Shown here: positions 1 to 64,000 of the stretch, in pieces | Layout of the letters: each line of letters begins with the position of its first letter | How positions within the stretch are numbered: the stretch's first letter is position 1 | Assembly: GCF_963678975.1 (NCBI RefSeq) | Contig: NC_089278.1 | Location: 15,171,959-15,235,958, forward strand | Length of the DNA: 64,000 nucleotides | Reading direction: 5' to 3' | Source of the DNA: Dysidea avara | Taxonomy: Eukaryota; Porifera; Demospongiae; Dictyoceratida; Dysideidae | Program-made: the position numbers and the translations under genes | Notes under the pieces: model-generated | What the model saw: only the letters and a program-made list of their open reading frames with translations | Told to the model about the DNA's origin: nothing | The model's database searches: none

Positions 1-529
1 AACAGGTTAAATATATAAACTATACTTCATAAATCTAAAAGCATATTTTTATGGCCTCAGATGCCATTTTGCAGCTGTTGAAATTCAAAATTTTCTGGGT
101 GGGGGATGCCTCTGCTTTCAGCAGCATATACATTGTCCTAGCTGAGGCCCTAGCTGTGCCCTACCAATAGGGAAAGTCTAGATATGCCACTGCACAGACT
201 GTTTACGAATAAACAAGACACTCTAATAGAACAGTCAAGCACTCCAATAGAACAGCCATTACTTGTTGGATTAGTACCCATAACCACTGTGTCCCTCCCC
301 TTGTTCTGGATGCTGATATGCCCCTATTCATAATCATGCATGTAACTGCAAGTTCTTTAAATGTAAAGTCTAATAGCTGCTAGCTATACATATATAGCTA
401 GTTGCTGCTACCATGTTTTGTTTTAAAGAAGGAACTTGTCTATGCTGATTCACTCTATTTTTTACTGAATGTACATGTGATGAAGTTTAGGTGGGACTTG
501 TTGTCTCTGGGTGAGTTCTGTGTTGGTTT

Positions 530-587
530 CATAAGCAAGAAACTTTACTCCAATTGCTCTAGCCACCCAGCTGTAATATCTGGACAG
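530..587 (+). repeat. SINE central-domain relic
   Basis: The stretch reading aagcaagaaactttactc, then ttgctctagccacccagctg, matches the central domain of the full SINE at 60410-60795 (which is on the minus strand). Paralogous copies sit at 12490-12555 and 42130-42190, so the relic predates the unit duplications. No tRNA-like head is recognisable here. Confidence 0.5.
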
Positions 588-927
588 TCCATAGGCGGCG
601 GAAAGGGGGGGGCTAGGGGGCTAAAGCCCCCCCTCAGAATGATATCAAACCGAAATTATCTTTCTTGGAGTGGGGCTGAAAACCGTGATAAAGATCGAGA
701 TACTCTAATAGAGCAGTCACTCTAATAAAGTAGTCAGTGTGTAGCGAGCTATGAAAGGATTTTTATGTAGTTTATCAGCTAGAAATGGTAGCTGGTGAGG
801 TGAAAAGCTCTTGTCAGTTGGTTGCGACCTTTTTTTTTTTTTTTTTTTGGTCTCACCTTACCAAACTATAGAAATAAGTCTGGGTTAGCCCAGCCCCCCC
901 TCATATCAACTACTTCCTCCGCCGCTG
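588..927. mobile_element. Short inverted-repeat element with 8-bp target duplication
   Basis: A G/C-rich block whose ends carry ggcggcgga (left) and tccgccgctg (right, the inverse). It is flanked by CTGGACAG at 580-587 and CTGGACAC at 928-935, a 7/8 match. Paralogous units 2 and 4 read straight through this position near 12551 and 42186, so the element inserted after duplication. The interior carries two copies of the ctctaatagagcagtca motif (703-735) and a poly-T run. The 8-bp duplication suggests hAT, but the class is inferred. Confidence 0.6.
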
Positions 928-1842
928 CTGGACACATAACTATTGTCTATTGTATACAGGGCACAGCTGAAGAGCAACCTACTCTTGCTTGACTGATACT
1001 GACATCACAAAATTTTACCTTTAAGAAATTTTCAATAAGTGATGATTCATATCTACCAATGATATCAAATGGCTAAGAAAACGAATGGCTTATTGGTGTA
1101 TCAGTTAACCCATGGACCATACTACACAACTGCAAATGGTATTCAATAAAGATGAAGCAAGAATCCCCTTTTGAAAGAGAATATTATACCTTAAAAGAGA
1201 TCTTCAACTATAATAATGATGATTCACAACTATACCAATGATACCAAATAGCTAGGAAAATGCATGGATTGTCAGTACATCACAAAAAATTATTGACAAT
1301 ACTACACAACCATGATTCAATAAAGACAAAATACCAAAAATCCCTTTAAGTCAGGCAAACAACCATGCATTATTTTGAAATATATGGTAACTTCCAACAA
1401 GTCAGATGGGATAGCTAATGCACAATAATAACAATACAGAACTAGAACTAGTTATCACAAAATTAATTGTTAGTGACCTGATGTATTTGAGATATCAAAT
1501 GACATACAACTACCATATATGGTCATGCTGGCCACATCCTGTATAAGTGCAGCCATGACAATGGATATATTAAGTTCATATTTGTCTACCCATACAAGTA
1601 GTAGTGTCTGGTTCACAGCAGTCATGTAAACAACATATCCACATGAGGTAATACAGCTATTAAGAATCTGATGGTACACCTCCATGTTACCACTGATTAA
1701 CCTCTCTTTGATAGTGACAAATTTTATCGTGAATCAATGTTTGACCATTGCAAAACTTCTGTGTTACTTTCCTGTGCCAGTTAGCAGTAATAAACTATAA
1801 TGCATATGTAGTAGGCCTCCCTGTGTGTTGCGCAAGTGGTTA

Positions 1843-2129
1843 TGTACCTATCAATATTATCACCCACTTCCCCCCTACTGGGCAACGGTGGGGAAAGTGT
1901 GGGTTTAAAAATTCCCCAACTATGAGGACACGACGACTGGTCAAATTCCCACTACTCTTGTATGAGATGCTTAAACCGCGGCCTGGCATAACTTATAAAG
2001 ACAAGCAAGCACTAAAATACTTACGTAGTCAAACATCCAACCCCCACTGCATGGTGGGGTGATTTTAAAGGTCAAATTGGAGCAAATTCCCTAATGTATG
2101 CCTAGGAGGGGGGTAATTTGATAGGTGCA
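1843..2129. mobile_element. MITE with TGCACCTATCAAT-type ends
   Basis: The left end tgtacctatcaatatta and the right end taatttgataggtgca are inverted repeats. The same ends occur at 13421 in unit 2, at 43212 in unit 4 (left end only) and in the better-preserved element at 41731-42033. This copy was present before the unit duplications. No coding capacity is seen. Confidence 0.55.
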
Positions 2130-3830
2130 GCATGTTTCGAGGTAAGGTGCTAGCTATACTGCCAGAATATTTGATTTGTACAACATTTTAATAACGATAT
2201 TTACAACTGCACTGTGTCAGTTTCCCACAAGCCAACGCAAACTGAAGTAAAACCATCTTAATTATATTCCTGCTCGTTCATTATATTTTAATTGAGTGTA
2301 AGCCACATGAATTTGTTTTTGTTTTTGACTGAAGGGAGCCATAAATGGATCAGCACTAGTGTGAATGCATCTTATTTATCCTTGCAGACAATTTTTATTA
2401 TACTCAGGCTATTACATTCACTCTACTAACATATGTGATTCTAAATTTATTCAAAATGGCTTGCAAAAATGCTTTTGCAATGTGATTTATTTGCAATGTG
2501 CATGTCACCCTGAGCATGTATGTTGACATGTGTAAGTTTACAATGTTACTGATAATGATAGCAGTGATGGAAATTGTATAGTGACGTTTCAGCGTTGACT
2601 ACACCAAATAAACCAATAGCTGGCAGGTGCAGTCCTCAAAGTTAATGTAGCCCATCCACTTGGGCAGGTAACTGCTAAGTAAAGCAATTAGTCTTCTACA
2701 AATGTGTCACAAAATACACTTTACTTTCATTTGAAAAGTGACGGCCTTTTATATTGGATCAATTTCCCCACAATATAGATACATGCAGTAACAATATGTA
2801 ATACATAATCTCTTAGACTGTATATGTGGTAGAGTATGGGGGGCATATATATTTGGGGAGGGTTTCGGAAACCCCTTTTTTGAAATTTTAATTTGTATAG
2901 GCTTGTCACGGCAGGAACATTGAACTATCTTAGTTTGGCAGTACAAAGAAAGAATAAATGGGAACAGAGCAGGATAGCATAGCTACAGTGTAATAGGAAC
3001 TTACATTGATTCTTAGAAGTGAGATACTCATTCCGCATATCCTCATATGTAATCTAATAAAGCAATCAAAGTACTCTAATAAAACTACATAATGGGTGTT
3101 GTTAATATAAGACTAATGGTTTAGTAGCTAATTGGATTTTGAGTTTTTCATTGTAATTGAATCCCTGTATGACCAGTGCCATAAACCATAACTGACATTT
3201 AGATCTAAGCATGACAGTATTAAACATAGTCGATGCTGTTCATGAAATTATGAATCTAGTAGCTAAATTTTGCCTTGTTTTAATTTTCAAAATTTATCAG
3301 CAGCTGGGGCTGCCCCCAGAGCCCTGTACCTATAACATACTGACAAAACTGGAAACCACCTTGGAAAAATCCTGGATAGCTACACCTCTGGACAGCAACA
3401 TGTTGTCAACTGTATGCAGTGGGACAGAAACAGAGGAGACAATGTTATGTGTATTTTATAGTATGAGACTTTAGTCCAGTGTAGGTTTTAATTCTCCCGG
3501 ATTGTGTCATACTGACAAATCCACCAAAATACCTGGGGAACAAGCCCCAAGAGGTGTATCAGTTATATCAGACAGTGCATACTAATGACACAGCTTCTTT
3601 CCTAAACCGGTCCTCCATTATCTTCTAAGAAAATTGATTAACACATGCACACCAGAAAAGTTATTGCATATAACTACATACATCGTTTTGCACAAATGTA
3701 TGAATGAGGTCTGTGATGAGAAAATAAGTATAAAGCAAAAGTTCAACATCACAATATGGAATTAGTAGAGATCAGTGCATAGTATTCAAATAAAAAAAAG
3801 TAGTTATCTGCCTATTATATTTCTACATAA

Positions 3831-4076
3831 TATGTGACCAGATTTGCACCTTTTCCACACATTTTACATACCAGCAAACAAAATGTCATAGCTGTTGACT
3901 TCTTACACTGATTAAGTTGCAATTTGCATCAAAATGCAGCCAGATACTGTAGCTACACTCATAGAAAATTGCAGATGACTTTATACAATGGTCAAAACGT
4001 TATGAAGTCGTAAAATCCACAAATGGGTCAAATTTTGTGTGTGAAAAGGGTACCTTTTCACAAATCCGGTCACATA
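3831..4076. mobile_element. TA-flanked MITE with TGTGACC ends
   Basis: The ends are TATGTGACCAGATTTG and, inverted, CAAATCCGGTCACATA. The inner arms are complementary for several tens of bases. Unit 4 shows the empty site near 45218 (ctacatatgttatctgc), which fits insertion at a TA dinucleotide as in Tc1/mariner-type MITEs. A relative lies at 18065-18322, and similar ends appear at 22246 and 22570 inside the CACTA-like element. Confidence 0.65.
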
Positions 4077-4408
4077 TGTTATCTGCAATCAAATCATTAC
4101 CTGCACTATATGCTAATTTTCTAGAGTAAAATAGCAATGTTGGTGTTGTGCCACAAGTGTCACCAGTTCACATGGATGATATAACAATTATTGCACAAGA
4201 ACAGAACAATAATCATAAATGTATAGATACTGTAGTAGCCCAATTCACAGGATAACTATTTGATAACACAAATAAATATAACACAATGGTGTACATGTGC
4301 ACTTGGTAATAAGATAGCACACACAATGGCAGTACTGTCAATGAGTTTGAGGTAAACAGTTACTAAGAGTACTAATAACATTGTTCATAGTGATCACTGT
4401 AAAGGAGA

Positions 4409-7400
4409 TCACTTGCACTTTTTGCGTGGTATATCCATCCACCTTGGCGCACGGATCGGGAAGTTATTCCCAACAATCATATGAGCAACATCACTTAGCT
4501 CTCCATTAGTGGCATTAACTACCCTCTTGGCAAACTTACAATCTCTGGTACGGTAGAGGTAATCCACAGCACAGCTCTCAATGTTGTTCATCATTGGCTA
4601 GAAGGGACAACATGAAACAGTGACCTTGTGTCTCTATACGCATGCGCACTTGCTCAAGTGCTGGAAAATCAGACTTGATGATCATTGCTTCAACTGTAAA
4701 CAGGTTAGTGATGTTTATTATAAACAGTTCTAGCCTGTAAAGTAGTGAAATTTCACGTTTGGTTTCACTTAGGCCGATTTTTGCACTTTAAAGTTATATA
4801 ATGGCTTTGCGGTTGCTCTTGTGTAAACAGCAACTTGATATAATTGACTTCTTTGTTCTATAGCGAGTAAATTGCAGGGCGGATCCAGCAGTTGGCAAGG
4901 GAAGGGGCACAAACAGGCTAAGTTGTAGTAGTATTTCAGTGTTGATTTTGGCTTTTGCAGATGGTTGTGAAGTCTTAAAAACTGTTTAAAAGGCTATTAA
5001 TGTCTTTAAAAGCAGCAACACAATATTTATTTTTAGAGGTGCTCAATACGCACAAAGGTGTTGAGTGACAATTTTACGGTTAGTTTGACTGATTCACTTT
5101 GATTTTAGGTGAATTTGTAACAATAAAAATTAATGCTAGTAAAATGTACATATTTTCATGAGTTATAAATTGATCTTGGCCTGAATTTATATATAGTTTT
5201 ATAGAATTATATGGTATGGTGTGTAAGTTATAGCAGTTTAGAAGTGGTAGATTGGAGGCCTCTACAAATCGGCATGTTAATTAAGACTATCCAGTGTATA
5301 TTACTAATGAGGTTTCATTATGATATGTTGTGATGGCAGGCAGTTCTACATGTACATGCTAAATTTGCAACAGCTACATTTTCTGCTGCGTGAGTTTTTT
5401 TTTGAGATTTTCACTGACTAAAAAAATTTAAGTTCATCACAAGTGGTCTGCACACATCAAACTAGTGTGAATCATTCAATGTCTTAGTACAGAGAATGGA
5501 CTAGTCATAGTAAATTTGTAACCTTGCTGCTAAAGCCACTCTTATTACAAAACATTGGACTCAACGTTGAGGTGGCCTTCATGAAGTACAATTTAAGACC
5601 TTAAATCAAGTTAATGTGGGTAGGGCTGCAGTTAAACAGTAGCGTTGAGTGAGTCAGTGTTGCTAATTGCAATTACATCATGTTCACACATGTGTGCACT
5701 TGTCATGTGATAAGTAGCACCACATGTCATAGCAGTGGCCTGGAGTGAAGACAGCTTGTAATCTGCCCACCCACCTCTCATTTCACCAGATCGAGGTAGC
5801 TTTACACTCTGTACTCTGAAATGTTTTATCAAAATAGTATTTAACAGCATGCAGCACATATGAATTATGCCAAATATACAGGGTATATAGATACAGTGGG
5901 ACCTTGATCATTCGAATGTTATGTGAACCCAAGATTATCCTAACAATATACGTAAATAATGAAGGTGGGTACGCATACATTTTGTTTTAGTACATGTGCG
6001 TACAGGTATGATCAGTGTAAACGCATTAACCACAGTGATAACATGTATATTTTCCTGGTAAGACCTTTAAAGTTGACCACACATTCCCTTGTGGAATGTG
6101 ACAGTACAGGATCCCAATAGGGTCTTACTGTAGCAATCCTCCAAGCCAGGTAAATGAAACCAGTGTGGTACTTGGGTTTACAGTATTATACCAGTAGAAA
6201 GGCCTTTGTGAATACTGGAAGTGCTGCAGTGGGACTCTGGGAACCTGTACATTTACCAAACCCCACCACCATCCTAGGATGGAGGTTGTATCCAAGGACC
6301 ATTAGTCCTACTACCAGCATTAATGAGCCTACTTGACAAGATCACTTTAAGGTTGAGCAGTCATTGATAAGGCTCAGCAATAAACCAAATACATGTACCA
6401 CTGTGATCTGCACTGTATGCTGTACAATCTCATGTACTGGTTATGGGTATTTATATACACAATCATTGCACATAACAGACACAATGCATTACATATAAGG
6501 TTACACATACCATTCTGCTGGACATCACTTCCATTCCATCACACATGTCCATGGTCTGTTCAAACCCAGTCATCATGTAGTCATGATAGTTGACCAGACT
6601 TATGATGGTGCTATCATCAGGACAGTCACTACCAGGTTGTGACATACGCATCGTGTACTCGTACTGACATCCCATACGACCCATTTCAGTTGACATCTCA
6701 TCCATTCTCTCCTCCATGTCTTCACAAGTTTCGGGTGCCTGGAGCACACTATGGAGTTGCTATTCATTTCAACACAGTACTAACCTGTCTTTTCTTCTTA
6801 CTGTTTCCATCGTCAAATGGGGTTAATGTAGGAATCTCAGTAACTTCATTTTCTTTATGACGGTATGCCATTACTAGAATTCCCCTTGAATTAACAGCAT
6901 TGTCTGAGCAGAACTTGACTTGTAGTCCATCAGACGACATCTGGTTACTTATGTCAGGCCTTTTACTACCACATAGTGTCATTTCATTTCCTCCCATTGT
7001 AATCTTCATATGGTCAGGGCACTTACAAACCTCATCCTCACAGTCAGTAGTATTCTGCAGCATCTGGTCAACTACACGATAAGTGACCAGACCTTCATTG
7101 GCAATGTTCCACACACAAAAAATGTTGTTGGGATATTGTCTGTATCCAAAGTAGTTTGGGGAATTGATCTGATAAATAGTACCAAACTGTTCTGTACGCT
7201 GGATAATCTCTTTATCTGGGGTGCGTGATACTAGTTTACAGTCTGAAATCGAAACATTTGCCTTTCGAGTGGTACATTTCTCCCTAAACCAAACATACAG
7301 TACAAACTATAACTACAATTCACACTTAAGATGTGTATCTAGCTGAAAAGTTTCTGAATGCCCTTTTCTCAACTGAAGAAAGTGTTAATACAAAAACCCA

Positions 7401-8821
7401 GGTATCAAACAGTATAATCATACTGTTTAGTAGGGTAGTGACTAGTTCTGCTAAAAAAAGCTGCATCTAAAAACCATTATGGAAATATCATATGCAATGA
7501 AATCACCTTTGTGAAATAGTCTTACACCATTCAGCATCAATTACAGCAAAAACACTTACAGGTGTCCGGATATTGAATTTTTAAAAAAAGCCATATCTTG
7601 AAATTTTGCCTGCCAGCCTACCTGCCTACCTGCCATTGTCTGTCTGCCTGTCTGCCTCAGTTTGAAGGCTAGAGGCCAAGCGAAGGAATGCACAGCCACC
7701 ATTTTATATCACAGCAATAAACTCAATGGTGGGATGTGCCTTTTGTAGTTCAGATGAATGTCTGCCTTCTGCGATTTGCCATTCCTTTTATCTTCAAGTG
7801 AATGATCGTTCTTCTTCATGGAAACCAAACCAAGGCATTACTTTTCTGTATTGACACTTTCCTTGAAGGAGTGTATTTTGACACCACAAAACTATTTGAG
7901 GCACTTAATGGACTGCAATATCAGGAGCAGCTAAGCTGCACTTTTTTCTCTGCCCCAGCACTAAAGAAAAGAGAAGCAGTCTGTAACAGTCACACACATG
8001 TATTTCATTGCTATGCTCTAACAAAAAATTAACACAAACTAGTATTACTTTAAAAATGAAGTAGGGTTCCAGTGATAAAAATTGATGTAACCAGAGATGA
8101 TGGTATAGCAATGAGGGAAATACTTGGCATTGCAGGAATGTGGGAAAATCCCTACTTGGTATTGTAGGAGTAATGCCAAAGCAGGTATTACTACATGGCC
8201 AAGTAGCTAGGGATTCTTCTCTCATAGCTACTGTACCATTATCTCTCTTTTTATCCCTGGAACCCAACATCATTTAATTTTTATTGCACTAGTTGCCATT
8301 ACAGAGTTTGAGTATCTTTCATCTCTGTCACTGAAGGGCATGTAAGGTTATTGTGCAGTGCCACACTAGCAACCGACAGCTATTATCACTGTTGCTTTTT
8401 CACTTTGTTCCTCATTAGAAACCTGATCATACAAAACATGATGGTTTAAGACCACTATGCCAATATTACAATCCAAACTTGTGTTTCATCTGATAATTAG
8501 TTTTCTCATTAACTATGGAACTTACACATAAGAACACTGACTCGGATTTAAATCATCTTTTTCACAAATAGCCTTGCACTCCCTGATTTTTCTTTGTATT
8601 ATCTTGTTGGTTCTTTTCACTGTAAAACATGCCATCCTCCTACAGCAAACAAATTCACAACATTATTACTTACTCAACATGGTTTACCCTTCATCAGGAA
8701 ACTGATCTTTAGGAACATGACAGTATCTGCACGGGATGTAATTTTCACCACCAATGTTGTTCTCATCACCAGCCAAGCAAGTGGCAAAGAAAATGCTCAA
8801 CACTACCGACCTCAGCATCAT
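4409..8821 (-). CDS. Secreted CUB-domain precursor, copy A (five exons, intact)
   Basis: Exons on the minus strand are 8688-8821, 8526-8639, 6785-7283, 6511-6738 and 4409-4597. All junctions are GT-AG and phases agree, giving 387 residues. Exon 1 encodes a signal peptide (SVVLSIFFATCLA core) followed by IPCRYC. Exon 2 is cysteine-rich. Exon 3 holds a CUB domain (INSPNYF, FCVWNI, LCGSKRP, VKFCSDNA, LVMAYRHK) and ends in the basic run SKKKRQ. Exon 4 is Met-rich with cysteines (MEERMDEMSTEMGRMGC). Exon 5 starts PMMNNIESC and ends KKCK. CUB domains mediate extracellular binding, but the partner here is unknown. A furin-type cut after KKKR is inferred. The start is placed at the first of two Met codons. 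Intron 4 (4598-6510) and intron 2 (7284-8525) contain transposon remnants. I do not recognise the full-length family. Confidence 0.8.
4875..5190 (+). mobile_element. GGCGGATCCAG element, partial copy
   Basis: Starts with cagggcggatccag and follows the same sequence as the complete element at 40124-40603 (internal landmarks: gatggttgtgaagtc, the aggtgctcaatacgcac region, gatcttggcctga). The right end is missing. It lies in intron 4 of copy A. Other copies are at 29413-29903 and 37455-37914, in the opposite orientation. Confidence 0.6.
7497..7895 (+). repeat. Dispersed repeat shared with 54625-54998
   Basis: The two stretches share an acacttacaggtg block, a gctagaggccaa block, gccaccattttacg/tat, gtgggatgtgccttttg and ttcatcc/aaccaaaccaaggcgtt-like sequence in the same order. 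The copies are at non-equivalent places, in intron 2 of copy A and intron 4 of copy E, so this is a mobile or dispersed sequence, not part of the unit. A short tetranucleotide-like tract (tgcctgcc...) lies at 7605-7660. An open frame exists in the second copy, but I cannot assign a product. Confidence 0.45.
8054..8277. mobile_element. Imperfect foldback MITE in intron 2 of copy A
   Basis: The left arm starts aatgaagtagggttccag and continues through gatgatggtatagcaatgag. The right arm, inverted, reads aaatgatgttgggttccag and then a matching gataatggtacagtagc block. The terminal sequence resembles the inner arms of the foldback at 55249-55670, so both probably belong to one family. No coding capacity is seen. 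Confidence 0.45.
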
Positions 8822-11788
8822 TGCTCACAACTTCCTTTATAAACAATACACATAAACATATTAATTAATGTTTGTACAGTAATAATGTGGAAATATAAAG
8901 TTTCAAGGTGAGAACTCATGATTACAGTATTTACTGGGGGCGTTAGTTACCACTTTTAACTAACTATAGTATGTACAAGTTGAGCTGGATCCTGAAAAAC
9001 AGCTAAAAATTAAAAGTTGATTTTTTCTCAAGAGAATAAATATTTCAGCCAACCAGATGATTAATAGTGATAGCAAAGGTGTCAACAACAGACATGTACA
9101 GTTTAACTTCATTACAAGTTCGGGAAAGGGCTGTAATAGACACTGTATTGTATGGCTTCCCCATAGGAAATGTATGGTGAAAATTTTGATTGGCTGTAAA
9201 TAGTATGTCAGACATTTAAACAAAAAGATTTTGAAATATATTTAGCTCATCAAGTAGTGGGAATGACCATTTCAGTTGGAAGAGACATATACAAGGTGAG
9301 TAATGTAGATAGTTTTTCTGTTGCTAAAATGCTCATCAAGCTTGTTATTGTATCTTACACGTGCACTTCAAACTGGTAAGAAACTGCCTCAGAGTCAGAG
9401 TAAAATGGATGTGGACGGACACAAATACATGCAAGGACAACACACACACACACAAACATGCACATATACACACAGCTGGACATGAAAATTCAGGAAACTT
9501 GGTGTACACCTACAGCACCTGATTAACAAAAAAAAAACACTACACTACGTTGCTACTAGGCACAATGACAGATGGACAGATGTCAGTAGTGATGTCAGTT
9601 GTTGTAATAACTATGGAAATATTAATCTAGTTACTAATTCTTTAACTGTTATACTATAATTCCATTCTAATGAAATTATAATAATGATTTGCTTGTACTG
9701 TTGCAATTAAACCAGCCAAACATAATCTTTCCCAGATGCTTCAAACACCTTGTGAGTAGCTGCATGACATCATCTTATGACCTGATAACATCATAGTCAT
9801 TTTCTTATCCATGATTAAGAAAGTACAAATTTCAACTGTTATTCTATGATTTTGTACCGTACCTCAATAATTTCTAGCCATATGGTACATGTATGAGATA
9901 TACTTTGTCAACTTTAATAATACTGTTTATGAACAGACATGCAAATCCAGTGGTCGTATATTATACACTATTAAAAAAGTGATTCTTTCATTATGAGCTA
10001 TATACTAGGAGCAGTACAAACTATGTCTTCACAACAGAGCCCAGTCATATTTGCAAACATGCATGTGATAATGACGATTATGACACATTGTCTATGGGAG
10101 ATTAATTGGTGCCAATCATTTGTGTACACATCAAACCCTATTGATGCTGTTCAATTGAACATGTTTCCAATGTCATCAAGTGGTTATATGACTAATGTAC
10201 ACACCAGACATAACTTCTCTTAATGAATACAGTCAAACTGGCACTAGAGTGAAACTACCATAGCCACTGTGTCTCACCAATATCAAATGTGTCACAAACC
10301 AGATATATACCTCACATTATTGAGGTATTCTCTAGTCCTCTCCAGTGACAATTGTGTTAGTAAATATTACAGGGGTTATTTTTTATTCAAAATGACTGAG
10401 TTGATTGTATATACACTGTCACATAGAGATCCTTGTGTACAGATATGTCACAATACAACACAATAACAACACACACATATGCACATAGCTACTAGCTAAA
10501 TAAATATTCATTTACATTTCACTGAAATAGATATACTTTGAGATCTTAATTTAACTTTTGTATGTAAAAAAAGCTTGCAAATCTATTAGCCACGTATAGG
10601 CATGGAATGTGACTCCTAGAGCAACATGTTATATTCATTGTTACTACACATCGCCATCATGAATGCATACAACAAATATCTTCATTACCATCAATTGCTC
10701 AGAAATCCCAACTATGGTATACAGTTTATTATATTTTAACTTGCAGAGGAACAATATTATTATTGTTATTATTACTGTACCCAGGAGTTCATACTATATA
10801 TAGAGGGAGCCTCCCTCTATATATTATGGACACTTGCTGTACCCTTGAAGTTAATCACATAATTACAGGTAATAGTTCACCACAGCTGAACTGGGCACCA
10901 CGAATATCAAATTTCATTGCAGCTGTTTGTAAACGGCTCATTGTGCTCGCTCAATTTGTCTCATGCATGTTAACAATTATCAAACTATCCCAATACGTGT
11001 AAGAAAGCTAAAGTGTGCAAATGTGAGGAGTTAGCAATTTAACTATTCAGACCAAGAGTGCCAGCCAGGCAAGTACTTAAGTAGTCATTCAACAATCCAT
11101 CTTTTGACATCATTCAATTCATTCCATTTTCATTCAGCATTTTGCATTCCATTTCCATTCACCATTTTGCCAGTAAATAATTGCAGTGCATTTCATTGAT
11201 GGGCTGGGTAATAGCGGTTATACAGGAAGGCTACCGAAAGCCTGTGTACCAGAAATTCAGAAATGTATCGTAATAGCAACCTTTCATTTTTGTTTCCACT
11301 CTTGTACAAAGCTACCAAATTTCTATATACCCTGAGATCAAAGCACAGCCAGTGAGCCAATTTTAATGCATTATAGACCTATACATCATTTGGACATGTT
11401 GTACATCACACTACTGCATTTAGTGAGTCCACACAGTATCACTGTTACATTTAAGAAACGGATAAAATATATGCAGCTAGCTATAATTGTTAAAGTATTT
11501 TACAAAGTGTGGCTAGCTATGATTACAATTAATCAGTAAGGGGACACACACAGCCACATGCATATCGGGTAGCGTGCTATAGCTATGACTGCAAACATGG
11601 GTGTGGCAAAGACTTAAATTATATAATAGCTAGCGGGTAGATTTTTTTTGCTACATTCAGTCAAGATTAATTTTCAGAAGTTGCTGTGTCCTCGTAGCTG
11701 AGTTAGTTAGTTAGCTAAGTTGGACACGTACACAAATGCAAACACAGAAACATCGGGAACTTCCCAGCTATACCTTAAATCTACTTAC
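8822..11788. other. Probable 5' intron and upstream spacer of copy A
   Basis: No gene is seen. The stretch 9540-9780 is paralogous to 58780-59010 in unit 5 (shared acagatggacag, ttcccagatg, gagctgcatgaca/tatta). The stretch 10850-11060 is paralogous to 38360-38850 in unit 3. Short CA-rich microsatellite tracts occur near 9430-9475. If the block at 11789 is a 5' untranslated exon, most of this is intron. Confidence 0.4.
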
Positions 11789-12030
11789 CGCGAATATTTT
11801 CTCTTGTACAAGCTCCAAATCAGCTTCTGCAACTACTCTACAGTGACTTTGCTGATGCTGCTGCTGTCGTCTTGCTGCAGTAGATCCTGACCAGCTCGTT
11901 TCAAGCTTCAGTTACACTACACTGATGCTGCGAAAATTGCCGAATTTATAGTGGACATGAGTGGGAGTCTAAACATAAGAGACCACAAAATGCGCCAGTT
12001 AATGACGTAACTGGGATGGCGCAAAAACGA
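11789..12030 (-). promoter_or_regulatory. Conserved upstream exon-like block and candidate promoter, unit 1
   Basis: On the minus strand a conserved stretch of about 110 bases ends in ATATTCGCG followed by the donor GTAAGT (exon edge 11789). The same block with a donor occurs upstream of copies B, C and E (28534, 41133, 62041). No long frame is shared, so I read it as a 5' untranslated exon. A CRE-like TGACGTAA lies at 12003-12010 and a gggatggcg box follows. Upstream of the Met codons, the copies share an acceptor-like GTAG/GAAG before TTGTG. Role in transcription is inferred. Confidence 0.45.
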
Positions 12031-12555: not shown

Positions 12556-13420
12556 AGCTATTGTCTATTGTATATGCAGGGAACAGCTGAAGAGCAGCCT
12601 ACTTGGCTGATGCTGACATCCCTGAAAAAAGAGAAAATTTTACCTTAAAAGAAATTTCAACAAGTGATGATTCACACCAGTTATACCAAATAGCTAAGAA
12701 AATGCATGGTTCTTCAGTATATTAGTTCACCCATGAACAATACTACATAACCACGATTCAATAAAATTGAAATGTAAAAATTCCTTTTTGAAAAGTGAGG
12801 TCAAGTTTGGAGACATCCGTTGCGACGGTTGCATTATTTTGCAATATATGGTAACTTCCAACAAGTCAGATGGGATAGCTAATGCACAATAATAACAATA
12901 CAGAACTAGAACTAGTTATCACAAATTTAATTGTTAGTGACCCGATGCATTTGAGATATCAAATGACATACAACTACCATATATGATCATGCTCCCCACA
13001 TCCTGTATAAGTGCAGCCATACCAACTTAACAGTTGGTCAAGTAATCTTATATGTTACAAGTTAGTGGAATTTCCTGCATTAATACACTGGCACGGATAT
13101 AGTGCCAATGGACATGTTGGAAGTTCATATTTGTCTACCCATACATGTAGTGTCTGGTCCACAGCAATCATGTAAACAACACATCCACATAAGGTATAGT
13201 TATTTAATGGTACAGGTACCTCCATGTTACTACTGATTCACCTTTCTATGATAGTGACAAATTCATCATGGATCAATGTTTGACCTAGCTTGTCATTGCA
13301 AGGCTTCTGTTTTACTCTCTCGTGCCAGTTAGCAGTAAAGATAATCCATTAATTTGGGTGTACAAATGCAAGTACTTCTACGTAGTGCATGGGCCCCCCT
13401 GTGTGTTGTGCGAGTGGCTG

Positions 13421-18064: not shown

Positions 18065-18322
18065 TACTCCATATATGTGAGTGGATTTGCAAAAAAGTAC
18101 CCTTTTCACACACAAAATTTGACCCATTTTTTTAACTTGTAAAATTCTTAACTTTCTAATAGGTGCATGTAGCTGTCTGAAACTTTCCATGAGTGAAGCT
18201 ACATTATCTGGCTATATTTTGATACAAAAGTAGCTTTATCAGTATAAGGAGTCAACTGTTGTAACATTTCATTTGCTTATATGTAAAATGTGTGGAAGAG
18301 GCACCTTTTCGCAAATCCGGTC
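18065..18322. mobile_element. MITE remnant with TGTGACC-type end
   Basis: Related to 3831-4076. It contains aagtacccttttcacacac, acaaaatttgaccc and, at the right, cttttcgcaaatccggtcac. It lies in intron 2 of pseudogene B, and its right end abuts the ACGC microsatellite. Confidence 0.45.
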
Positions 18323-18324
18323 AC

Positions 18325-18460
<136 letters not shown>

Positions 18461-19900: not shown

Positions 19901-19904
19901 GCTT

Positions 19905-23340: not shown

Positions 23341-23342
23341 AT

Positions 23343-27113: not shown

Positions 27114-27119
27114 AATATG

Positions 27120-41059: not shown

Positions 41060-41132
41060 AGTTAGTACTATGTTGCACACGTACACAAAGGCAAACACAG
41101 AAACAGCTACCTTGTATTAAAAATCTACTTAC

Positions 41133-46718: not shown

Positions 46719-48900
46719 TGTAAGAAAAAGTACAGATGGTGGAGCAAATCACCAAAACAGCTGAAACACAGGCTGATCAGTTGTCAGTAGCTGAGAGTGA
46801 GGTGCTGGTGATTGATGCAGTCAAAAAACAAGGGTCCACAGAGATTGTGTCAGACCAGTGCTACTCAACTCTAGAAGTTCAGGGCACACAGATGAAATTC
46901 AAGATTGACACAGGATCACAAGCAAATACAATTCCAGTTAAAATGTTCAACACTTTGCCTCAACAGCCAGTGATCAAGAGATGTGCAACAAGACTAACTA
47001 GCTATACTGGTGAGGATATGTGTGTCAAGGGCCAGTGTGTACTTAGCTGCCATGGACAGGACCTACCCTTCTTTGTGGTGGACACCAACCAAGATCTGGT
47101 TTTGGGTCTTAAAGCCTCACAAGATTTGAACATCATCAAAATAGTCCACAATGTAATCCAATTCCTGGAGTACTACCTAACAAAATATCCAATTGTGTTC
47201 AATGGATTAGGATGTCTGAGCAAAGCCATATTACATTAAAGTTGACCCCACGGTACAGCTGGTTATCACCCCAGTCAGAAACCATCCTCAGATTGTTTGA
47301 AGGTAACACTGGATGAAATGGAGAGAATGAATGTGATAAGAAAAATTGAACCAACAGAATGGGTAAACAGACTAGTAGTGGTGGAAAAGCCAAGCTTAGA
47401 ATTTGCTTAGACCCTAGGCCACTAAACCTGGCGATTCAGAGAGAGCATTTTAAAATTCCTAAACTGGATGACATAGCAACAAGATTAAGTGGTGCAACAG
47501 TTTTTTCAAAGCTTGATGCGAATCATGGTTACTGGCAAGAGCCCTTATATAGTCAACACCAGTCAACTACTTACAACATTCAACAGTCCATTTGGACGCT
47601 ATTGCTTTATGAGAATGCCTTTTGGCATCAAATCAGCACAAGAAGTGTGCATCAGCCAGATGTTTGGTGACCTTCTGGGTGTCGAGACAGATATTGATGA
47701 CATCTTAGTCTGGGGAGCCAACACCGAAGAACACGAGCAACATCTTAATGATATTTTGAAAAGATGCGAAGACATTCATCTTACCTTGAATAAGAAGTGT
47801 CAGTTTGGTTTATTTGAAGTGACTTACATTGGTCACAGTTAACTCCTCAAGGAATTCACCCAGATCCAGAAAAGGTGAAAGCAATTTGAGATATACCGCC
47901 GCCAACAGATAAGAAAGGTGTTGAGTACCTGCTGGGAGCTATCAACTACCTTGCTAAGTTCATTCCAAACATGTCCACCATGACACAACCAATACGAGAT
48001 TTGTTGAAGAAAGAAAATTTGTTTGAATGGCAGTCATCTTAAAGGCTCACCTTTGTTAAGATCAAGAATATCCTGTCAGCAGCACCTGTTCTAGCTTTTT
48101 ATGATGTTTCAAAGCCTGTGATCATTACCTGTGATGCCTCCAAGTCAGGCCTGGGAGCACTATTGTTGCAAGAAGGCAAGCCAGTGACATATGCATCGAG
48201 GGCACTATCAGATGCGGAAATGCGGTATGCTCAGATAGAAAAAAAGCTACTAGCAGTGGTGTTCGCTTCCACTAAGTTTCACCAATATGTGTATGGTAAA
48301 GATGTAGTTGTTGAGTCAGATCACAAGCCACTGGAGATGATAGCCAAAAAGGCATTAGTAGCAGCACTACATATACCACATTTGTAGCATATGTTACGTA
48401 GTATGACTGCAATAACACTCCTTCCACCTGCAGTTCAAGCCAGCTATAAGGACATGGTTCTAGCAGATACTCTGTCCCATGCATACATATCTGATGAAGG
48501 AGATAATGAGGTAGAAAAAGAGTTGAAATGTGCTGTACACTTAGTGGTTAGTACAGTACTGCTCCAGTAACAAATACAAAACTGAGTCAACATAAGGCAA
48601 GAACTGACTAAAGATGACTCCATGACCATTTTATGCTCAACAACATGCAATGACTGGCCCCACAAAATATCACAGGTTCCCAAAGAAATTAGAGAATTCT
48701 GGATTTTTTGTGATGAACTCACTGAAGCTGATGGCCTGATTCTGAAAGGGGGAAGACTAGTGATACCAGCAACGATGAGAAAAGAAATTCTAATCAAATC
48801 ATTTAGGCATTGTGAAGTGTAAGCAAAGAGCATGAGATGTTGTGTTTTGGCCTGGCATGAAGAAATGATTTCCAAGTGTGGCACCTGCCAGCCATCAAGT
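46719..48900 (+). mobile_element. Ty3/Gypsy retrotransposon pol remnant
   Basis: Plus-strand blocks in order are: aspartic protease around 46890-46950 (IDTGSQAN motif); reverse transcriptase at about 47240-47840 (MPFGIKSAQ and DIDDILVWG); RNase H at about 48118-48370 (CDASKSGLGALL); and the zinc-binding start of integrase at about 48720-48890, ending in SKCGTC. Stops and frameshifts separate the blocks, so it is dead. No LTRs, gag or integrase core are seen. It abuts the truncated CUB exon of copy D. Confidence 0.85.
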
Positions 48901-52390: not shown

Positions 52391-53147
52391 TAGGGTTGGG
52401 CGGTACTGGTAATTTCTACTTGCGGTTATTGCGACAAGGTGACTGTGTGATAATAGACGATATGCATACTTTATTACTCGAACGAAAAATGATCAATTAA
52501 GCGTAGACGGCGCAAAACTTGACGATAACTTAAAAGCGGAAGTTTCATACAAAAGTATGGGGAGCAAATGCGGCTCAAACTATAACTCACCAGTCGAGCT
52601 AAGGACAGGCCATCTTGCTTGCCATACACTTCTTTTGCATGGAAAGAAGTGTATGGCAAGCGAGATGGCCTGTCCTTAGATCGACTGGTGAGTTATTGCT
52701 CGAGCCGCATTTGCTCCCCATACTTTTGTATGGAACTTCCGCTTTTAAGTTACCATCGAGTTTTGCACCGTCTACGCTTAATTGATCATTTTTCATTCGA
52801 GTAATAAAGTGTGCATATCGTCTATTGCAATTATTGCCATGTCTGGTAAGAGAATATGTTATCAATCAAGATTATTTATTTAGTGCATTATTATGGGCCT
52901 ACAATATCCAAATAAGATACTGAAATGTAATTGTAGCACAAGGTGCTGTCAGACCTTCAGGTCCAGTTCTCTAGTCTGTACTCAGTCCTGTAGTCACCAT
53001 AAAGTACTAATAAGTTAGCAATTATGCAGAAAATGTAATAATATTGCACAAACGGTATTGCAGTATTTTCAAAATAGCTGCGGTACTCAGTATTGCACAC
53101 CGTAATATTACATTCAGGCGATAATATTGAAATATTGCCTAACCCTA
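52391..53147. mobile_element. hAT-like nonautonomous element, 757 bp
   Basis: The ends are TAGGGTTGGGCGGTA and, inverted, TAGGGTTAGGCAATA. GTATATGC (52383-52390) and CTATATGC (53148-53155) flank it, a 7/8-bp duplication. The interior holds a foldback (52452-52826) and a LINE 3' end remnant (52945-53020). Many hAT families have a (C/T)AGGGTTGGGC-like end. Confidence 0.7.
52452..52826. mobile_element. Long foldback nested in the hAT-like element
   Basis: The two arms of about 184 bases (52452-52635 and 52643-52826) are near-perfect reverse complements around a 7-base loop. Open frames through both arms give near-identical peptides, which is an artefact of the palindrome. If transcribed, it would form a long hairpin RNA. 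It lies asymmetrically within the hAT-like element, so it is probably a separate later insertion. Confidence 0.85.
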
Positions 53148-54222
53148 CTATATGCATGTCCTACAGTATTGTAAGCAACTATTTGAAACCATTTTTGTAT
53201 ATGTTCATTATAATCAAAACTAGAGACACTTGGGGAGCAAGCTTAAGTTGGTGAGACTGAACTATGAAAGTTGACGTGTATGATAACTAACACAGTACAG
53301 TGAAATCTCGTTAATAGGGCCACCTTTTGGACCCACAATAAGTGGCCCTATTAGTGAGTTGGCCTTATTAATGACAACCTCATTAATCTGGCCATAAACA
53401 AAGTGGCTTATTATAAAGGTTTTCAACAAATCCTTTCCATGAAATTATGAATCTAAAAACATTCAAAATCTGTCAGTGGCTGGGGCTATGTCCCCAGACC
53501 CCTATACCTTTAACTCAATGACAAATTAGCTGGTGGATAGCTACACCTCTGGTGTTGTCACCCAGATTGTATGATATATGGGGAATAACAAGTACTGAGA
53601 GGTGTATCAGTTACATCAGACAGAGCACATGCACAGCTTCTTTCCTAAATTAGTCCCTCAGTTGATTATCTTCAAAGCAAATCAATTAACCAGAAAAGTT
53701 ATTGTATACACAACCATAGTGTTCTGCACATATAAATGAGGTCTGTGAGGAAAACGGTAAATGACAAAGCATAAGTTCATTCAGTGTGGAATAAATTAAC
53801 AGTATATAGTATTCAAATGGCCATAGAAAAGGTAGTCCTATATGTTGACTCCCTGCCACACAGGCTTTAATATTAATGGTGGTATTATCTGCAACCAAAT
53901 GTTACACTGTGACACCTGTATTACAATGCTATATATGCTAATTTTCTAGGGTAAAAATAGGACTATGTTGGTGCTGTGCCACAAGTGTCACCAGTTCACA
54001 CTGATGATAATCATGTGACAACAGAACAACAGATAGGAAATGTACACAGTAGCCCAATTCACAGGATAACTATTTGATAATACAAATAAATATAACACAA
54101 TGGTGTACATGTGCACTTGGTAATAAGATAGCACATACAATAGCAATACTGTCAATGAGTTTGGGGTAAACAGCTGCTAAGAGTACTAATAACACTGTCC
54201 TTTGTGATCACTGTGAAGGAGA

Positions 54223-57200
54223 TCACTGGCACTTGGTACGTGTAACATTCATCCACTTTGGTGCACGGATCGGGAAGTTATTCCCAACAATCATACGAGC
54301 AACATCACTCAGCTCTCCATTAGTGGCATTAACCACCCTCTTGGCAAACTCACAATCTCTGGTACGGTAGAGATAATCCACAGCACAGCTCTCAATGTTG
54401 TTCATCATAGGCTATAAGGGAAAAGATCTATTTTTTCACAAGGAAGGGAGAGTGTTTAAGGCTATGCTGTATACATCACTAGCAAGGCTGCATACACACA
54501 GCTTTTCAATCACTAGCCTATTTTCTGTACTTATCAAATGGTACGGTAGTACCGCTTAAGTAGGGATCGCAGTGAAAATTTCGTGCGCCACTCAAAATTC
54601 TGCCTTTAAAAATTATCCTAACAACATGAAAATCACCTTTATGGAATAGTACTAGTCCATATAATACATAAAACAACATTTAATACAATAAAACACTTAC
54701 AGGTGGCCGATATAAAATTTTAAAGAATTTCCGAAAACTCAAATTTTAGTCTCACTGACCAGTCACAAGGCTAGAGGCCAAATGAAATAGCACACGGCCA
54801 CCATTTTACGCCACAATAATAAACTCACCAGTGGGATGTGCCTTTTGGGGTTCCAACAAGTGTAGGCTCCCTGCGCCTTGTCTTTTCCTTAATCTTCAAT
54901 CAGGCTGTTTGTCTTCTTCATCCAACAAAACCATATCGAGGCGTTAATTTTCCGTATCAACACTTTCTTTTAGCAGCATATTTAGACACCACAAAATTAT
55001 TTCAGAGTTGGATTTCAGACAGTCCCAGTGCTATTATAAGAGGTACACTTGCTAGATATCTGCAAGTTCACGATTGGGATCCCGTTCGCGATAGGTTTGT
55101 GACTACACCCATCAAATAAAAATCTAGGTGGACTAATAGTGATAGAGTATGGAGACCATACCTCTTAACCAATCTAGCTGTTTACTTGACAGTAAACAAG
55201 ATGACCTCACCCCTTATTGGTCTAGCTAGCTGCACATCTCTTGGCTGACTTGAGATATACTCTAATACAACAGTCACTCTAACACAACAGTCACTCTAAC
55301 ACAACAGTCACTCTAACACAACAGTCACAAGTTACATTGTAGCTAGCTGTGCTACAACTAGTATTTTTTTTAAATGTTGATTTAAAATGAAGTAGGGATC
55401 TATGCAATAAAAAGTAGTGAAACAGGAGATGAATGAGCATAGCTCATCATCTGTAACAATTATTTTGCTCAATGCCAAAGTAGGGACTTACCCACTGAGC
55501 TATGCTGTAATACCATCATTCATCTCTTGTTTCACTACTTTTGTTGCATAGATCCCTACTTCATTTTAAATCAACTATTTTTAAAAATACTAGTTGTAGC
55601 ACAGCTAGCTACAATGTAACTTGTGATTGTTGTGTTAGAGTGTGACTGTTGTATTAGAGTATATCTTGAGAAAAACAATTTTTTTTAAAATACTAGTACT
55701 AATGGTTCACATTAATTTAACATGTGCAGAGCACTTGTAAAAAAATTGAGGCCAGTGAAAATCTCAAAAACTCATGTAGCAGAAAGTGTAGCTATTCTAA
55801 ATTTAAATTTAGCATGAACGTGTATCTACCACCACAACATCTCACAACATCTCACAACATAACGTCATCATTACTAGAGCTACCCTTATAACAAAAATTG
55901 GCCTCAACATTGAGGTGGCCTTCATGAAGTACAATTTGAGACCTACTTGACAAGGTCAATATAATGAGGTGATCTTATTAATGATGTCACCACTAAGTAG
56001 AGGTTTCACTGTATTACATGAGGGAACAAAGCTCAATATACTAATACATATAAAATACTACACAGTCATTGATAAGGCTCAGCAATAAACCAAATATGGG
56101 TACAACAGTGATCTGCACTGTATGTTGTACTGCATCTCAGGCACTAGTAGGTAACTGATCACAGCACATAACAAAGATATGCAAACTGTTATACCATCCT
56201 GCTGGACATCACTTCCATTCCATCACACATGTCCATGGTCTGTTCAAACCCAGTCATCATATAGTCATGATAGTTTACCAGACTCATGATGGTGCTATCA
56301 TCAGGACAGTCACTACCAGGTTGTGACATACGCATCGTGTACTCGTACTGACATCCCATGCGACTCATTTCAGTTGACATCTCATCCATTCTCTCCTCCA
56401 TGTCTTCACAAGATTCAGGTGCCTAGTTGAACAAACTATGGAGTTACTATTTGGTTCATTATAGTACTAACCTGTCTCTTTTTCTTACCCCTGTACATGT
56501 CATCATTACTGATTTGCTGTAGTGGAGGACGTGGAGTAGCTTCTCCTTTGTGACGGTAAGCCATCACTAGAATTCCCCTTGAATTGACAGCATTGTCTGA
56601 ACAGAACTTAACATGTAACCCATCAGATGACATCTGGTTACTGATGTCAGGCCTTCTACTACCACATAGTGTCATTTCATTTCCTCCCATGGAAATCTTC
56701 ATATGGTCAGGACACTGACAGGCCTCGTCCTCACAATCAGTAGCATTCTGCAGCATCTGGTCAACTACACGATAAGTAACCAGACCTTCATTGGCAATAT
56801 TCCACACACAAAACATGTTGTTGGGATATTCTCTGTATCCAAAATAGTTTGGGGAATTAATTTGATAAATAGTACCAAACTCTTCTGCACGCTGGCTAAT
56901 CTCTTTATCTGGGGTGCGTGATACTAGTTTACAGTCTGGAATTGAAACATTTGCCTTTCGAGTGATACATTTCTCCCTACAGAAAAAATCAAAACATTCA
57001 ATCAGTGCAAACTATAACTACAGTTCACACACAAGTTTCACTCTAGTTGTAAAGTTTTTGAATAATGTATGAAAACCGGTATCACTGATAGAGAAGTTTA
57101 AGTGCCCTTCATTTTTTTTTAGAAATGGAACACAGTTTTACTTTACTTTGTTCATATTTATGTGTCATTAGAAACCTGATCATGCAAAACATGAGACCCA

Positions 57201-57755
57201 CTAGTGTTGCATCTAATAGTGTCTGTCATGCTCGTAGTCTAGTTTTGCAACCTACAAACTGTTGCTCGTACTTTGAAGCTATCAAAGTATTCAGCTTATA
57301 GAGAAGAAAATTCAGTTTTCTATTCCTTTAGGTAAATATTTTCATTACTAAAATGACAGAATTTGCTAATATACAGACATCATTAAACTATCTCTCTTTA
57401 ATATTGCTACTATAATAGTGACACAAGGAGCCTCTTTTTTTGCTATCCCATCAACTACAGAACTTACACATAATTACAGCCTCCAAAGCCATCGTCTTTG
57501 CAAATACTCTTGCATTCCCTGACTTCTCTTCCTGGCACTATCTTGTTGATTCTTTTCACTCTAAAACATGCCATTCTCCTACAACAAACAAGATCAAAAC
57601 ATGATTAATTTAAACTTGGTTTACCCTTCATCAGGAAACAGATCTTTAGAAACACGACAGTATCTGCATGGGATGTAATTTTCACCACCAATGTTGATCT
57701 TGTCACTAGCCAAGCAAATGGCAAAGAAAATGCTCAACACTACCAATCTCAGCAT
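54223..57755 (-). CDS. Secreted CUB-domain precursor, copy E (five exons, intact)
   Basis: Exons on the minus strand are 57625-57755, 57468-57578, 56472-56976, 56195-56422 and 54223-54411, with GT-AG edges, matching phases and 387 residues. Exon 1 is a signal peptide (LVVLSIFFAICLA) then IPCRYC. Exon 2 has MACFRVKR and several cysteines. Exon 3 is the CUB domain (YQINSPNYF, CVWNIANEGLVTYRVVD, CQCPDHMK, LCGSRRP, VKFCSDNA, LVMAYRHK) and ends RGKKKRQ. Exon 4 is Met-rich (MEERMDEMSTEMSRMGC). Exon 5 begins PMMNNIESCAVDYLYRTRDC and ends TRTKCQ. NAT sequons occur in exons 3 and 5. Start: this copy has GTG where copy A has its first Met, so the second Met is used. The exon 4 donor is GTATAA, weaker than the GTATGT of copy A. 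It is the best candidate for an active gene with copy A. Molecular function is unknown beyond probable extracellular binding. Confidence 0.82.
54625..54998 (+). repeat. Dispersed repeat shared with 7497-7895
   Basis: See 7497-7895 for the shared blocks. This copy has an open frame at 54838-55119 (with CLLHPTKPYRGVNFPYQHFL) whose homologous stretch in the other copy is frame-shifted. It could be a fragment of a mobile-element gene. No product is assigned. Confidence 0.45.
55249..55670. mobile_element. Foldback element with about 190-bp arms
   Basis: The arms start CTTGAGATATACTCTAATA and end with its inverse at 55670. They share acaacagtcac repeats, then acaagttacattgtagc, tgctacaactagtattt and aaaatgaagtagggatc. 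The left arm has four 18-bp repeats of the form actctaacacaacagtc and the right arm about two. Inner arms resemble the MITE at 8054-8277. The spacer is about 60-70 bases. No protein is encoded. Confidence 0.75.
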
Positions 57756-60797: not shown

Positions 60798-60932
60798 ATG
60801 TATGTATGTATGTACGTATGTATGTATGTATGTATGTATGTATGTATGTATGTATGTATGTATGTATGTATGTATGTATGTATGTATGTATGTATGTATG
60901 TATGTATGTATGTATGTATGCATGTATGTATA
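60798..60932. repeat. (GTAT)n microsatellite
   Basis: About 130 bases of nearly pure TATG repeat directly at the 5' end of the minus-strand SINE. Long Cys-Met-Tyr-Val and His-Thr-Tyr-Ile frames here are repeat artefacts. Confidence 0.95.
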
Positions 60933-62040: not shown

Positions 62041-62345
62041 CACGAATGTCGAGAGGAATGTAACTGTTCTCTTCTAGATAGCTAGCTACGAGCTCCAAAC
62101 CAGTTCTGCAAGTACTCTACAGTGGTTTTGCTGCTACTCTTGTTCAATCCTGCTGCTGCTGCTGCTGCTGCAGTAGATCCTGACCAGTTCTTCAGTCGAT
62201 AACACTACACCGATGTGGAAAAAAACTTCGACATTTATCCTAAGCGGCACGAGTGGGAGTCTAAACAAAAGAAACCACAAAAATCCGCCAGTTTCTTGGT
62301 TGTGGCGTGTAAAATTATTATAACATTGTGGTCGACGGTGTGACA
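62041..62345 (-). promoter_or_regulatory. Conserved upstream exon-like block, unit 5
   Basis: The minus-strand block ends ATTCGTG|GTACGT (exon edge 62041), with a weaker donor than in units 1-3. A (CTG)n tract (62149-62173) is expanded compared with the other copies. The CRE-like TGACGTAA seen in units 1 and 3 is not conserved here. It lies 4.3 kb upstream of copy E exon 1. Confidence 0.4.
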
Positions 62346-62497
62346 TCATATGCCGAGCTACCAGTCATGTTACATGGCACAACGATTGCTGTTGTATCCT
62401 CAGCAGGAAACTGTATTACATAGCCAGCTAGCTACATTGCTCCATTCTCTACCCAGCTGCAAATTCCATGTCACACTTTATAATTTGCAGCTGGCAG

Positions 62498-62767
62498 TTA
62501 GCACTGAATTTTTTTGAGCACATAAAAAAGTAAGCTAAATAAACACAAAACAAACAACAGCATTATAAGAAAAGGAAAGTCTTTGCCTTGCTCAAACAGT
62601 AGGCAGACTGCCCAATCCTGTGATGATGGAATTGTTCTCATTACAGATGCAGCATTACCACGCTGAACATCAATAACAATCTTCTGAGTCAAAAATTGAG
62701 TGGCTCTATTATCTCCAGGCTGCTCCATTACCTGGAACCTATCCACTGCACCAATGAACATGCACAT
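62498..62767 (-). CDS. Possible terminal exon of an unrelated membrane protein
   Basis: The minus-strand frame holds VMEQPGDNRATQFLTQK and VQRGNAASVMRTIPSSQDW, then a hydrophobic stretch (FPFLIMLLFVLCLFSLLFYV) and the tail LKKIQC before the stop. The sequence looks coding. The last 26 residues would form one C-terminal membrane segment with a short basic cytoplasmic tail. Possible acceptors lie near 62756 (GGTGCAG) or 62743 (TTCCAG). It has no counterpart in the other units. I do not recognise the family. Confidence 0.4.
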   Translation of the reverse strand: MCMFIGAVDRFQVMEQPGDNRATQFLTQKIVIDVQRGNAASVMRTIPSSQDWAVCLLFEQGKDFPFLIMLLFVLCLFSLLFYVLKKIQC

Positions 62768-62989
62768 GATTTAGATCAGCATAAAAATTATAGGAATTTA
62801 GGTATTCTATGAGGAACAGATCAGCACATCCATTTTAAACATTTTCCTGCACGTAGCTACGTAGCTAGCTGCCGGCCAAGTGTCCAGAGTACCTGCCACC
62901 AAATTCTTGTTGTGTTCACATGTATATGTCACAATTTTCTGCACTGGTGTAGTAAAGCAACAATGAATAAGTACTATACGGGTTAGCTG

Positions 62990-63120
62990 TTGTTAGCTGA
63001 TAAACGGTGTCGTGTCATATTATAGTCATAGCTCATTTCTGGTACCAGCAGTGCATAGATGGTATCCCTGGCAGACAGACTTGTTACGTGTGTAAGCTGA
63101 TTCAATCTTTCCTTAGTTAG
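62990..63120 (-). CDS. Possible exon upstream of the membrane-protein exon
   Basis: The minus-strand frame encodes QLTKERLNQLTHVTSLSARD, then TIYALLVPEMSYDYNMT, which looks like real protein. Candidate acceptor TTATGCAG lies near 63123; the donor is not clear. It may belong to the same gene as 62498-62767, entering from beyond the window. The link is a guess. Confidence 0.3.
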
Positions 63121-63429
63121 CTGCATAACCAAACGTTAATGATGGTATCTATCACCATTGAGCCTTAAGTACCAATAAAGGAATTCCTCTTGATGAGCCG
63201 CCAACATTACTGTTTGAAAATGATACGCTAGCTAGTAAAATATAAGTACTAGCTATAGGAGTAATACTATTCCAGCCATGGAACCTAGCTGTGGCAGAGA
63301 ATACAGACAAATTTGTATTAGATTCCACAAATTTCTTTTTGCAAGTAAACTTAGCAACCACAAAAGTGTTCCATGAAATTTGATGTGAGCACAACCTGCA
63401 AAATTCCCCTTGAATGTTAGGTGATATAA

Positions 63430-63620
63430 GGTAACTTCCAACAAATTGGATGGGATAGCTAATAATACAGAATTAGAACTAATTTCCCAACATTAATTAT
63501 TATACTGACCTGATCTACATAGATATCAAATGACAGTTACCTTATATGGTCATTTAGCCTACTAAGTGCAACCATATTAGTTACAATTTGGTTAAGTAAC
63601 ACAAGTTTGTACATTCCCTG
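63430..63620. repeat. Start of duplication unit 6
   Basis: ggtaacttccaacaaattgg followed by atgggatagctaat, and then a tatcaaatgacag block, matches 1386-1560, 12850-13010 and 42830-43010 in the same orientation. This suggests that the array continues beyond the window. Confidence 0.6.
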
Positions 63621-63909
63621 GGTTCATACACTTTCTGTATAGATTGAACCATTGTATTTATTAAGTTATAGTTAGCTGATAGCTTATGTATGTACGAAGC
63701 CCAAATTTATTTTATTAAATACATCTTCAAAAATCATATATTTGTCAGTTGTTAATATGAAAACACCATATTGACAAGTCATGACATAACTACCCAATTG
63801 AATGTATGGGTCACTTATGTTATGGATGATCCAGTACATTAGCTGTTGTGTATATGTACTTGCATCACAGAACTGCTAACACATAATTGTACATGTGTTT
63901 GTGTATAAT

Positions 63910-64000
63910 GCACATGAACATACACACACCACACCTATGTACACACACACACACACATACACACACTCACACACGCACACACACACACACACACACACAC
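63910..64000. repeat. (AC)n microsatellite at window end
   Basis: CA-rich tract becoming nearly pure (AC)n up to the last base. The preceding 63620-63910 holds nothing recognisable. Confidence 0.9.

Follow-up and report, generated by a model that had tools for sequence, protein, structure and literature searches.

CUB domains generally serve in extracellular binding, and three groups of proteins that carry them come closest to the genes described here. The complement proteases MASP-1 and C1r contain the CUB domains that are nearest by sequence among solved structures; platelet-derived growth factors C and D (PDGF-C and PDGF-D) combine, in this order, a signal peptide, a CUB domain, a basic cleavage site and a cysteine-bearing C-terminal part; and the spermadhesins are small secreted proteins that consist of a bare CUB domain and form a multi-gene family. 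In a 64-kb stretch of DNA, probably from an animal (referred to as the window; G+C content 33–43% per 2-kb step) we analyzed a tandem array of five copies, A to E, of a gene for a predicted secreted CUB protein. Copies A, C and E belong to the CUB family (PF00431) by matches of 30.9, 28.4 and 29.9 bits, respectively, above the cut-off of 21.4 bits, and the alignment with MASP-1 spans most of the domain. Compared with MASP-1 and C1r, the family has additional cysteines in the CUB region and a single CUB domain, and no serine-protease domain was found. The layout follows the same order as in PDGF-C and PDGF-D, but copy A has no match to the PDGF/VEGF domain, the C-terminal part contains only four cysteines, and an extra cysteine module precedes the CUB domain. 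Like the spermadhesins, the proteins are small, putatively secreted and encoded by several genes, but in A and E the CUB domain is flanked by modules on either side, so that these two do not consist of one CUB domain only, and C retains the N-terminal cysteine module. We consider it probable, though far from certain, that the locus represents a lineage-specific family of secreted CUB proteins, whose tandem array turns over by unequal exchange in an ordinary birth-and-death process.

Exon-by-exon blastn and tblastn searches within the window located homologues of the copy A exons at four further places, all on the minus strand. Self-alignment showed that the genes plus their flanks are repeated in the same order, with A, B, C, D and E arranged head-to-tail in homologous units of roughly 9–17 kb. 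Entire units were copied in tandem and afterwards degenerated to varying extents. The between-copy matches listed (those above 60 bits) scored 74.3–626 bits, whereas 20 simulated windows with the same first-order composition yielded four matches at E < 0.01 in total, the best of which reached 34.6 bits. The start of unit A lies beyond the left edge of the window, with homology of its flank from position 193 onward, and the flank of E shows homology only from about position 53433. A sixth unit begins at the right edge, where 62087-62293 matches 11807-12000 and 63424-63553 matches both 12844-12990 and 1380-1526; within the window it consists of flank only and contains no gene copy. The original prediction had postulated five copies of the same orientation in units with shared flanks, a sixth unit at the right edge, and copies in different states (two open, one truncated, one pseudogene and one fragment), all of which our searches confirmed. 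The copies, their exons and the units are as follows.

6374-8818, minus strand: copy A, exons 1–4 open (324 codons), plus a candidate exon 5
8688-8818, 8526-8639, 6785-7283, 6511-6738 and 6374-6412, minus strand: copy A exons 1, 2, 3 (CUB), 4 and candidate exon 5
17285-28049, minus strand: copy B, pseudogene, identified by exon homology
27918-28049, 20754-20864, 17530-18040 and 17285-17483, minus strand: copy B exons 1 (given to B by position only), 2, 3 and 4
31484-36982, minus strand: copy C, open but truncated, with exon 1 at 36852-36982, exon 2 at 36699-36803 and exon 3 at 31484-31988
46359-46718, minus strand: copy D, fragment, with the 3' end of exon 3 at 46615-46718 and exon 4 at 46359-46565
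56079-57755, minus strand: copy E, exons 1–4 open (325 codons), plus a candidate exon 5
57625-57755, 57468-57578, 56472-56976, 56195-56422 and 56079-56117, minus strand: copy E exons 1, 2, 3 (CUB), 4 and candidate exon 5
11709-12000, 28547-28707, 41060-41325 and 62087-62293: starts of units B, C and D and of the sixth unit, from self-alignment
62087-63553, no strand assigned: flank of the sixth unit, from self-alignment
4072-4613 (A), 16414-16837 (B), 45219-45709 (D) and 53932-54427 (E), no strand assigned: shared downstream block, non-coding or of unknown nature, with a remnant near C at 31358-31450

The gene models of A and E have introns 1 and 3 of 46–49 bp, and a mostly unalignable intron 2 of 1242 bp in A and 491 bp in E. 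Copy B is damaged in several places, with a frameshift in exon 1 (located about 7 kb from exon 2), an in-frame stop followed by a later frameshift in exon 3, and a damaged exon 4. In copy C, exon 3 ends in its own stop codon near the position where other copies have a basic site; this site and exon 4 are absent. Copy D has lost the basic site too, and its homology to the other copies breaks off at position 46718. Pieces of a Ty3-type retroelement in separate open reading frames (ORFs; 46724-48387, plus strand) adjoin this broken end; the ORF starting at 46724 has an aspartic-protease match below the cut-off, and reverse transcriptase and RNase H follow further on with matches above it. The 7-kb gap between exons 1 and 2 of copy B harbors ORFs on both strands (21473-25427) that look like transposon-type proteins. 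Three of them (21473-21826, 22743-23207 and 25029-25427) were compared with Pfam and gave no significant match, and the plus-strand segment 23331-23771 weakly matched the C-terminus of hydroxyacylglutathione hydrolase (18.7 bits, cut-off 25 bits, E = 0.0023), which may be due to chance.

Exons 1–4 of the five-exon gene originally predicted are clear, whereas exon 5 remains a candidate. The best one found comprises 12 codons and a stop. Its acceptor, frame and stop are common to A and E, and 9 of the 12 residues are identical. Against an exon speak that all three codon differences are replacements, that the A–E DNA identity continues beyond the stop, and that the exon 4 donor of E is weak (GTATAA). 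In D, the stretch matching the candidate is shifted out of frame. A short fifth exon is thus plausible but not proven. An earlier candidate at 5632-5815 was rejected, as its DNA matches nothing else in the window but itself, weakly and in reverse.

The ratio of nonsynonymous to synonymous substitution rates (dN/dS) between A and E was 0.32 (321 codons; bootstrap range 0.20–0.50; Fisher's test, p = 1.7e-7), with 33, 24 and 48 differences at codon positions 1, 2 and 3, respectively. Over 140 codons of exon 3 the ratio fell to 0.15 (0.07–0.29), and the 76 codons of exon 4 showed only three nonsynonymous changes. For B and C, the ratio of 0.65 (0.37–1.23, p = 0.14) was indistinguishable from neutral; the remaining four copy pairs ranged from 0.27 to 0.44. 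By these comparisons A and E look constrained by purifying selection and B looks relaxed, possibly together with C, and B looks dead. That the whole array is a relic, with A and E non-working too and their open frames mere leftovers, would fit the three of five copies that are broken or truncated, the weak donor of E and a non-coding block that is as conserved as the exons. We regard this as very unlikely, however, given 324 and 325 open codons over four exons and a dN/dS clearly below 1.

Change is unevenly distributed along the coding sequence. In exon 2 plus the linker between the CUB domain and exon 4, 35.5 nonsynonymous A–E changes fell on 133.5 sites, compared with 19.7 on 538.5 sites in a core of the N-terminal part of exon 3, the CUB domain and exon 4 (p = 2.5e-14; regions grouped after the per-region values had been seen, exon 1 left out), which corresponds to an approximately nine times faster rate. 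The dN/dS of the fast regions, from the two sequences A and E only, was 0.58, or 0.64 with exon 1 included, and their synonymous rate was likewise higher (p = 0.058). As the ratio stays below 1 and the synonymous rate is raised, relaxed constraint is enough to explain the fast change. The same data bear on a role in recognition or defence, in which secreted CUB proteins would bind microbial or allorecognition ligands, and selection for diversity would drive both the duplication and the rapid change of the cysteine module and linker. The array of copies in different states, the high nonsynonymous rate and the kinship of the CUB domain to those of complement proteases agree with such a role. Yet the ratio does not demand diversifying selection, the regions were picked post hoc, the CUB domain itself is strongly conserved, and similarity to complement CUB domains is common to CUB domains at large, so that we consider this role possible but rather doubtful.

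A and E differ at 82 of 955 aligned exon sites and at 54 of 369 sites in the alignable introns and adjacent flanks (8/46, 9/46, 12/75, 9/73 and 16/129), the latter figure being lowered by leaving out the unalignable bulk of intron 2. In the linker and intron 3 blocks, copy D is more similar to E (identities of 0.90 and 0.96 to E versus 0.56 and 0.84 to A; in intron 3, 4/49 differences to E and 12/46 to A). A large part of its exon 4 is about equally close to both, and beyond exon 4 the greater similarity is to A (0.90, 0.94 and 0.85 to A versus 0.74, 0.71 and 0.80 to E). Judged from these similarity blocks, D is likely a mosaic, E-like in one part and A-like in another, as would result from unequal crossing-over or gene conversion. 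The idea that B is a corresponding mosaic of C and A could not be maintained. Four of the six 80-column blocks between columns 80 and 559 place B nearer to C than to A, but exon 4 of B is roughly as near to E as to A, and C lacks an exon 4.

The proteins encoded by A and E consist of a hydrophobic N-terminus, a small cysteine module, the CUB domain, a linker that ends in KKKRQ, and a methionine-rich module of 76 residues with four cysteines. By its hydrophobicity, the N-terminus of each of A, C and E resembles a signal peptide. Exons 1 and 2 encode the small cysteine module, for which the searched part of E had no Pfam match. The interrupted ORF of B matched PF00431 with 16.7 bits, below the cut-off. 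In single-sequence searches, the closest solved structures were the CUB domains of MASP-1 and C1r, whereas searching the solved structures with a profile of three aligned sequences returned nothing at E = 0.01. The alignment with MASP-1 places Glu, Asp and Asp-Asn of E exon 3 at positions that may correspond to the Glu, Asp and Asp calcium ligands of the calcium-binding CUB subgroup. Eight cysteines of exon 3 (C3, C15, C56, C81, C86, C88, C104 and C125) are conserved in all three of A, C and E and outnumber the four conserved cysteines of a canonical CUB domain. The basic site reads KKKRQ in A and E and RKKRQ in B and is absent in C and D. These features can also be read structurally, with CUB and cysteine modules cross-linking in the extracellular matrix, the basic linker binding acidic glycans, and copy number affecting dosage only. 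The many cysteines, the basic KKKR cluster and the conservation of the CUB domain and exon 4 are consistent with such a matrix protein. However, neither repeats nor known matrix domains beyond CUB were found with Pfam, and the open copy C has lost the basic cluster; hence, we give this function a limited chance.

The border between exons 3 and 4 lies directly after KKKRQ, and a basic site at this position suggests that the protein is processed into two pieces, one with the CUB domain and one with the C-terminal module. In our proposed mechanism, the protein would be secreted, its CUB domain would bind a protein or a glycan, perhaps with the help of calcium, and a subtilisin-like convertase would cut after K-K-K-R and so separate the CUB part from the C-terminal module that exon 4 encodes. 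Exon 2 and the linker would then be adaptable, or just tolerant, parts around a constrained core of CUB and exon 4 modules. A latent ligand laid out like PDGF-C and PDGF-D would go further, with the exon 4 module set free as a signal once the protein is cut at KKKR. Here the order of CUB domain, basic site and cysteine-bearing C-terminal module, the position of the exon border and the near absence of replacements in exon 4 are in favor. Exons 1–4 of copy A, in contrast, matched CUB models only, up to E = 10, with no PDGF/VEGF or other ligand domain, and the furin site is non-canonical, which makes a PDGF-like ligand unlikely. A variant independent of PDGF-C and PDGF-D, in which a CUB pro-part is cut at KKKR and sets free a methionine-rich, disulphide-bonded peptide as an extracellular signal, appears most improbable to us. 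If it were true, copy C, in which precisely the basic site and the peptide are missing, would be a pro-part on its own and possibly a decoy.

Exon 4 has lost a cysteine to a nine-base deletion in both B and D, C39 in the former (17285-17483) and C24 in the latter (46359-46565). The two residues might be disulphide partners, in which case the loss of either would be equivalent.

Several observations weigh against a secreted, processed CUB family that turns over by unequal exchange. One downstream non-coding block differs between A and E at only 40 of 485 sites and is thus as conserved as the exons. It may be conserved for reasons of its own or have been exchanged recently. In the same block, the distances of D to A and to E are practically equal (0.060 and 0.061), a poor fit to a simple A-like tract. 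AlphaFold models from the three-sequence alignment were unusable for exon 3 (mean pLDDT 31.7) and weak, mainly helical, for exon 4 (mean pLDDT 57.6). A canonical furin site has an arginine at P4, which KKKR in A and E lacks and R-K-K-R in B possesses. Equal divergence of exons and introns between A and E, which would have spoken against the original prediction, was for the most part not seen (82/955 versus 54/369), the downstream block being the exception. An expanding and decaying family of secreted cysteine-rich proteins, as proposed there, agrees with the Pfam CUB matches of A, C and E, the hydrophobic N-termini, purifying selection between A and E and the degenerate state of B and D, while the interpretation as such is reasonable though unspecific. 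The analysis gave no direct support to any one of the roles suggested there (recognition, defence or matrix). On balance, we still favor birth and death of a secreted CUB family. The array offers a readable example of this process, with intact, truncated, pseudogene and fragment copies adjoining each other and at least one likely exchange tract, and its conserved C-terminal module, rich in methionine and cysteine, has no Pfam match. Should the host prove to be an early-branching animal, the family could inform on the diversification of secreted CUB proteins.

Pattern searches in bacterial and archaeal genome contigs gave 41 matches for exon 3 and 46 for exon 4, and those in viral contigs 57 and 18, respectively, none of which was confirmed; tblastn with exon 3 found no match in phages. 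These searches covered bacteria, archaea and viruses and say nothing on the spread of the family among animals. Our literature searches listed no title or abstract opening in which such a family is described.

Introns and many repeats are present across the window, as seen by self-alignment and a repeat scan. A report on the sponge Amphimedon queenslandica describes small introns and closely packed genes (PMC4773876), and some repeats of the window look similar to sponge DNA. Against the median given in that report, 9 genes in 50 kb, the window nevertheless looks gene-poor. No Rfam family reached its gathering score in the window, and a scan with the bacterial code found no tRNA in it. The 21-mer GACTGCTCTATTAGAGTATCT occurs at 13 sites within 216-50706 (with up to two mismatches), several of them in pairs 27–28 bp apart, compared with a mean of 0 occurrences in 100 shuffles; it had no exact match in viral contigs. 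A dispersed repeat of about 450–500 bp is found in both orientations at 29410-29904, 37451-37901 and 40125-40604, with a partial copy at 4945-5184. Long palindromes at 52452-52826 and 55293-55660 (92.6% and 83.0% identity to their own reverse complement, respectively) are possibly foldback or MITE-type elements. Long four-base microsatellites are located at 18324-18458 (CACG, 33.8 copies) and 60798-60931 (ATGT, 33.5 copies).

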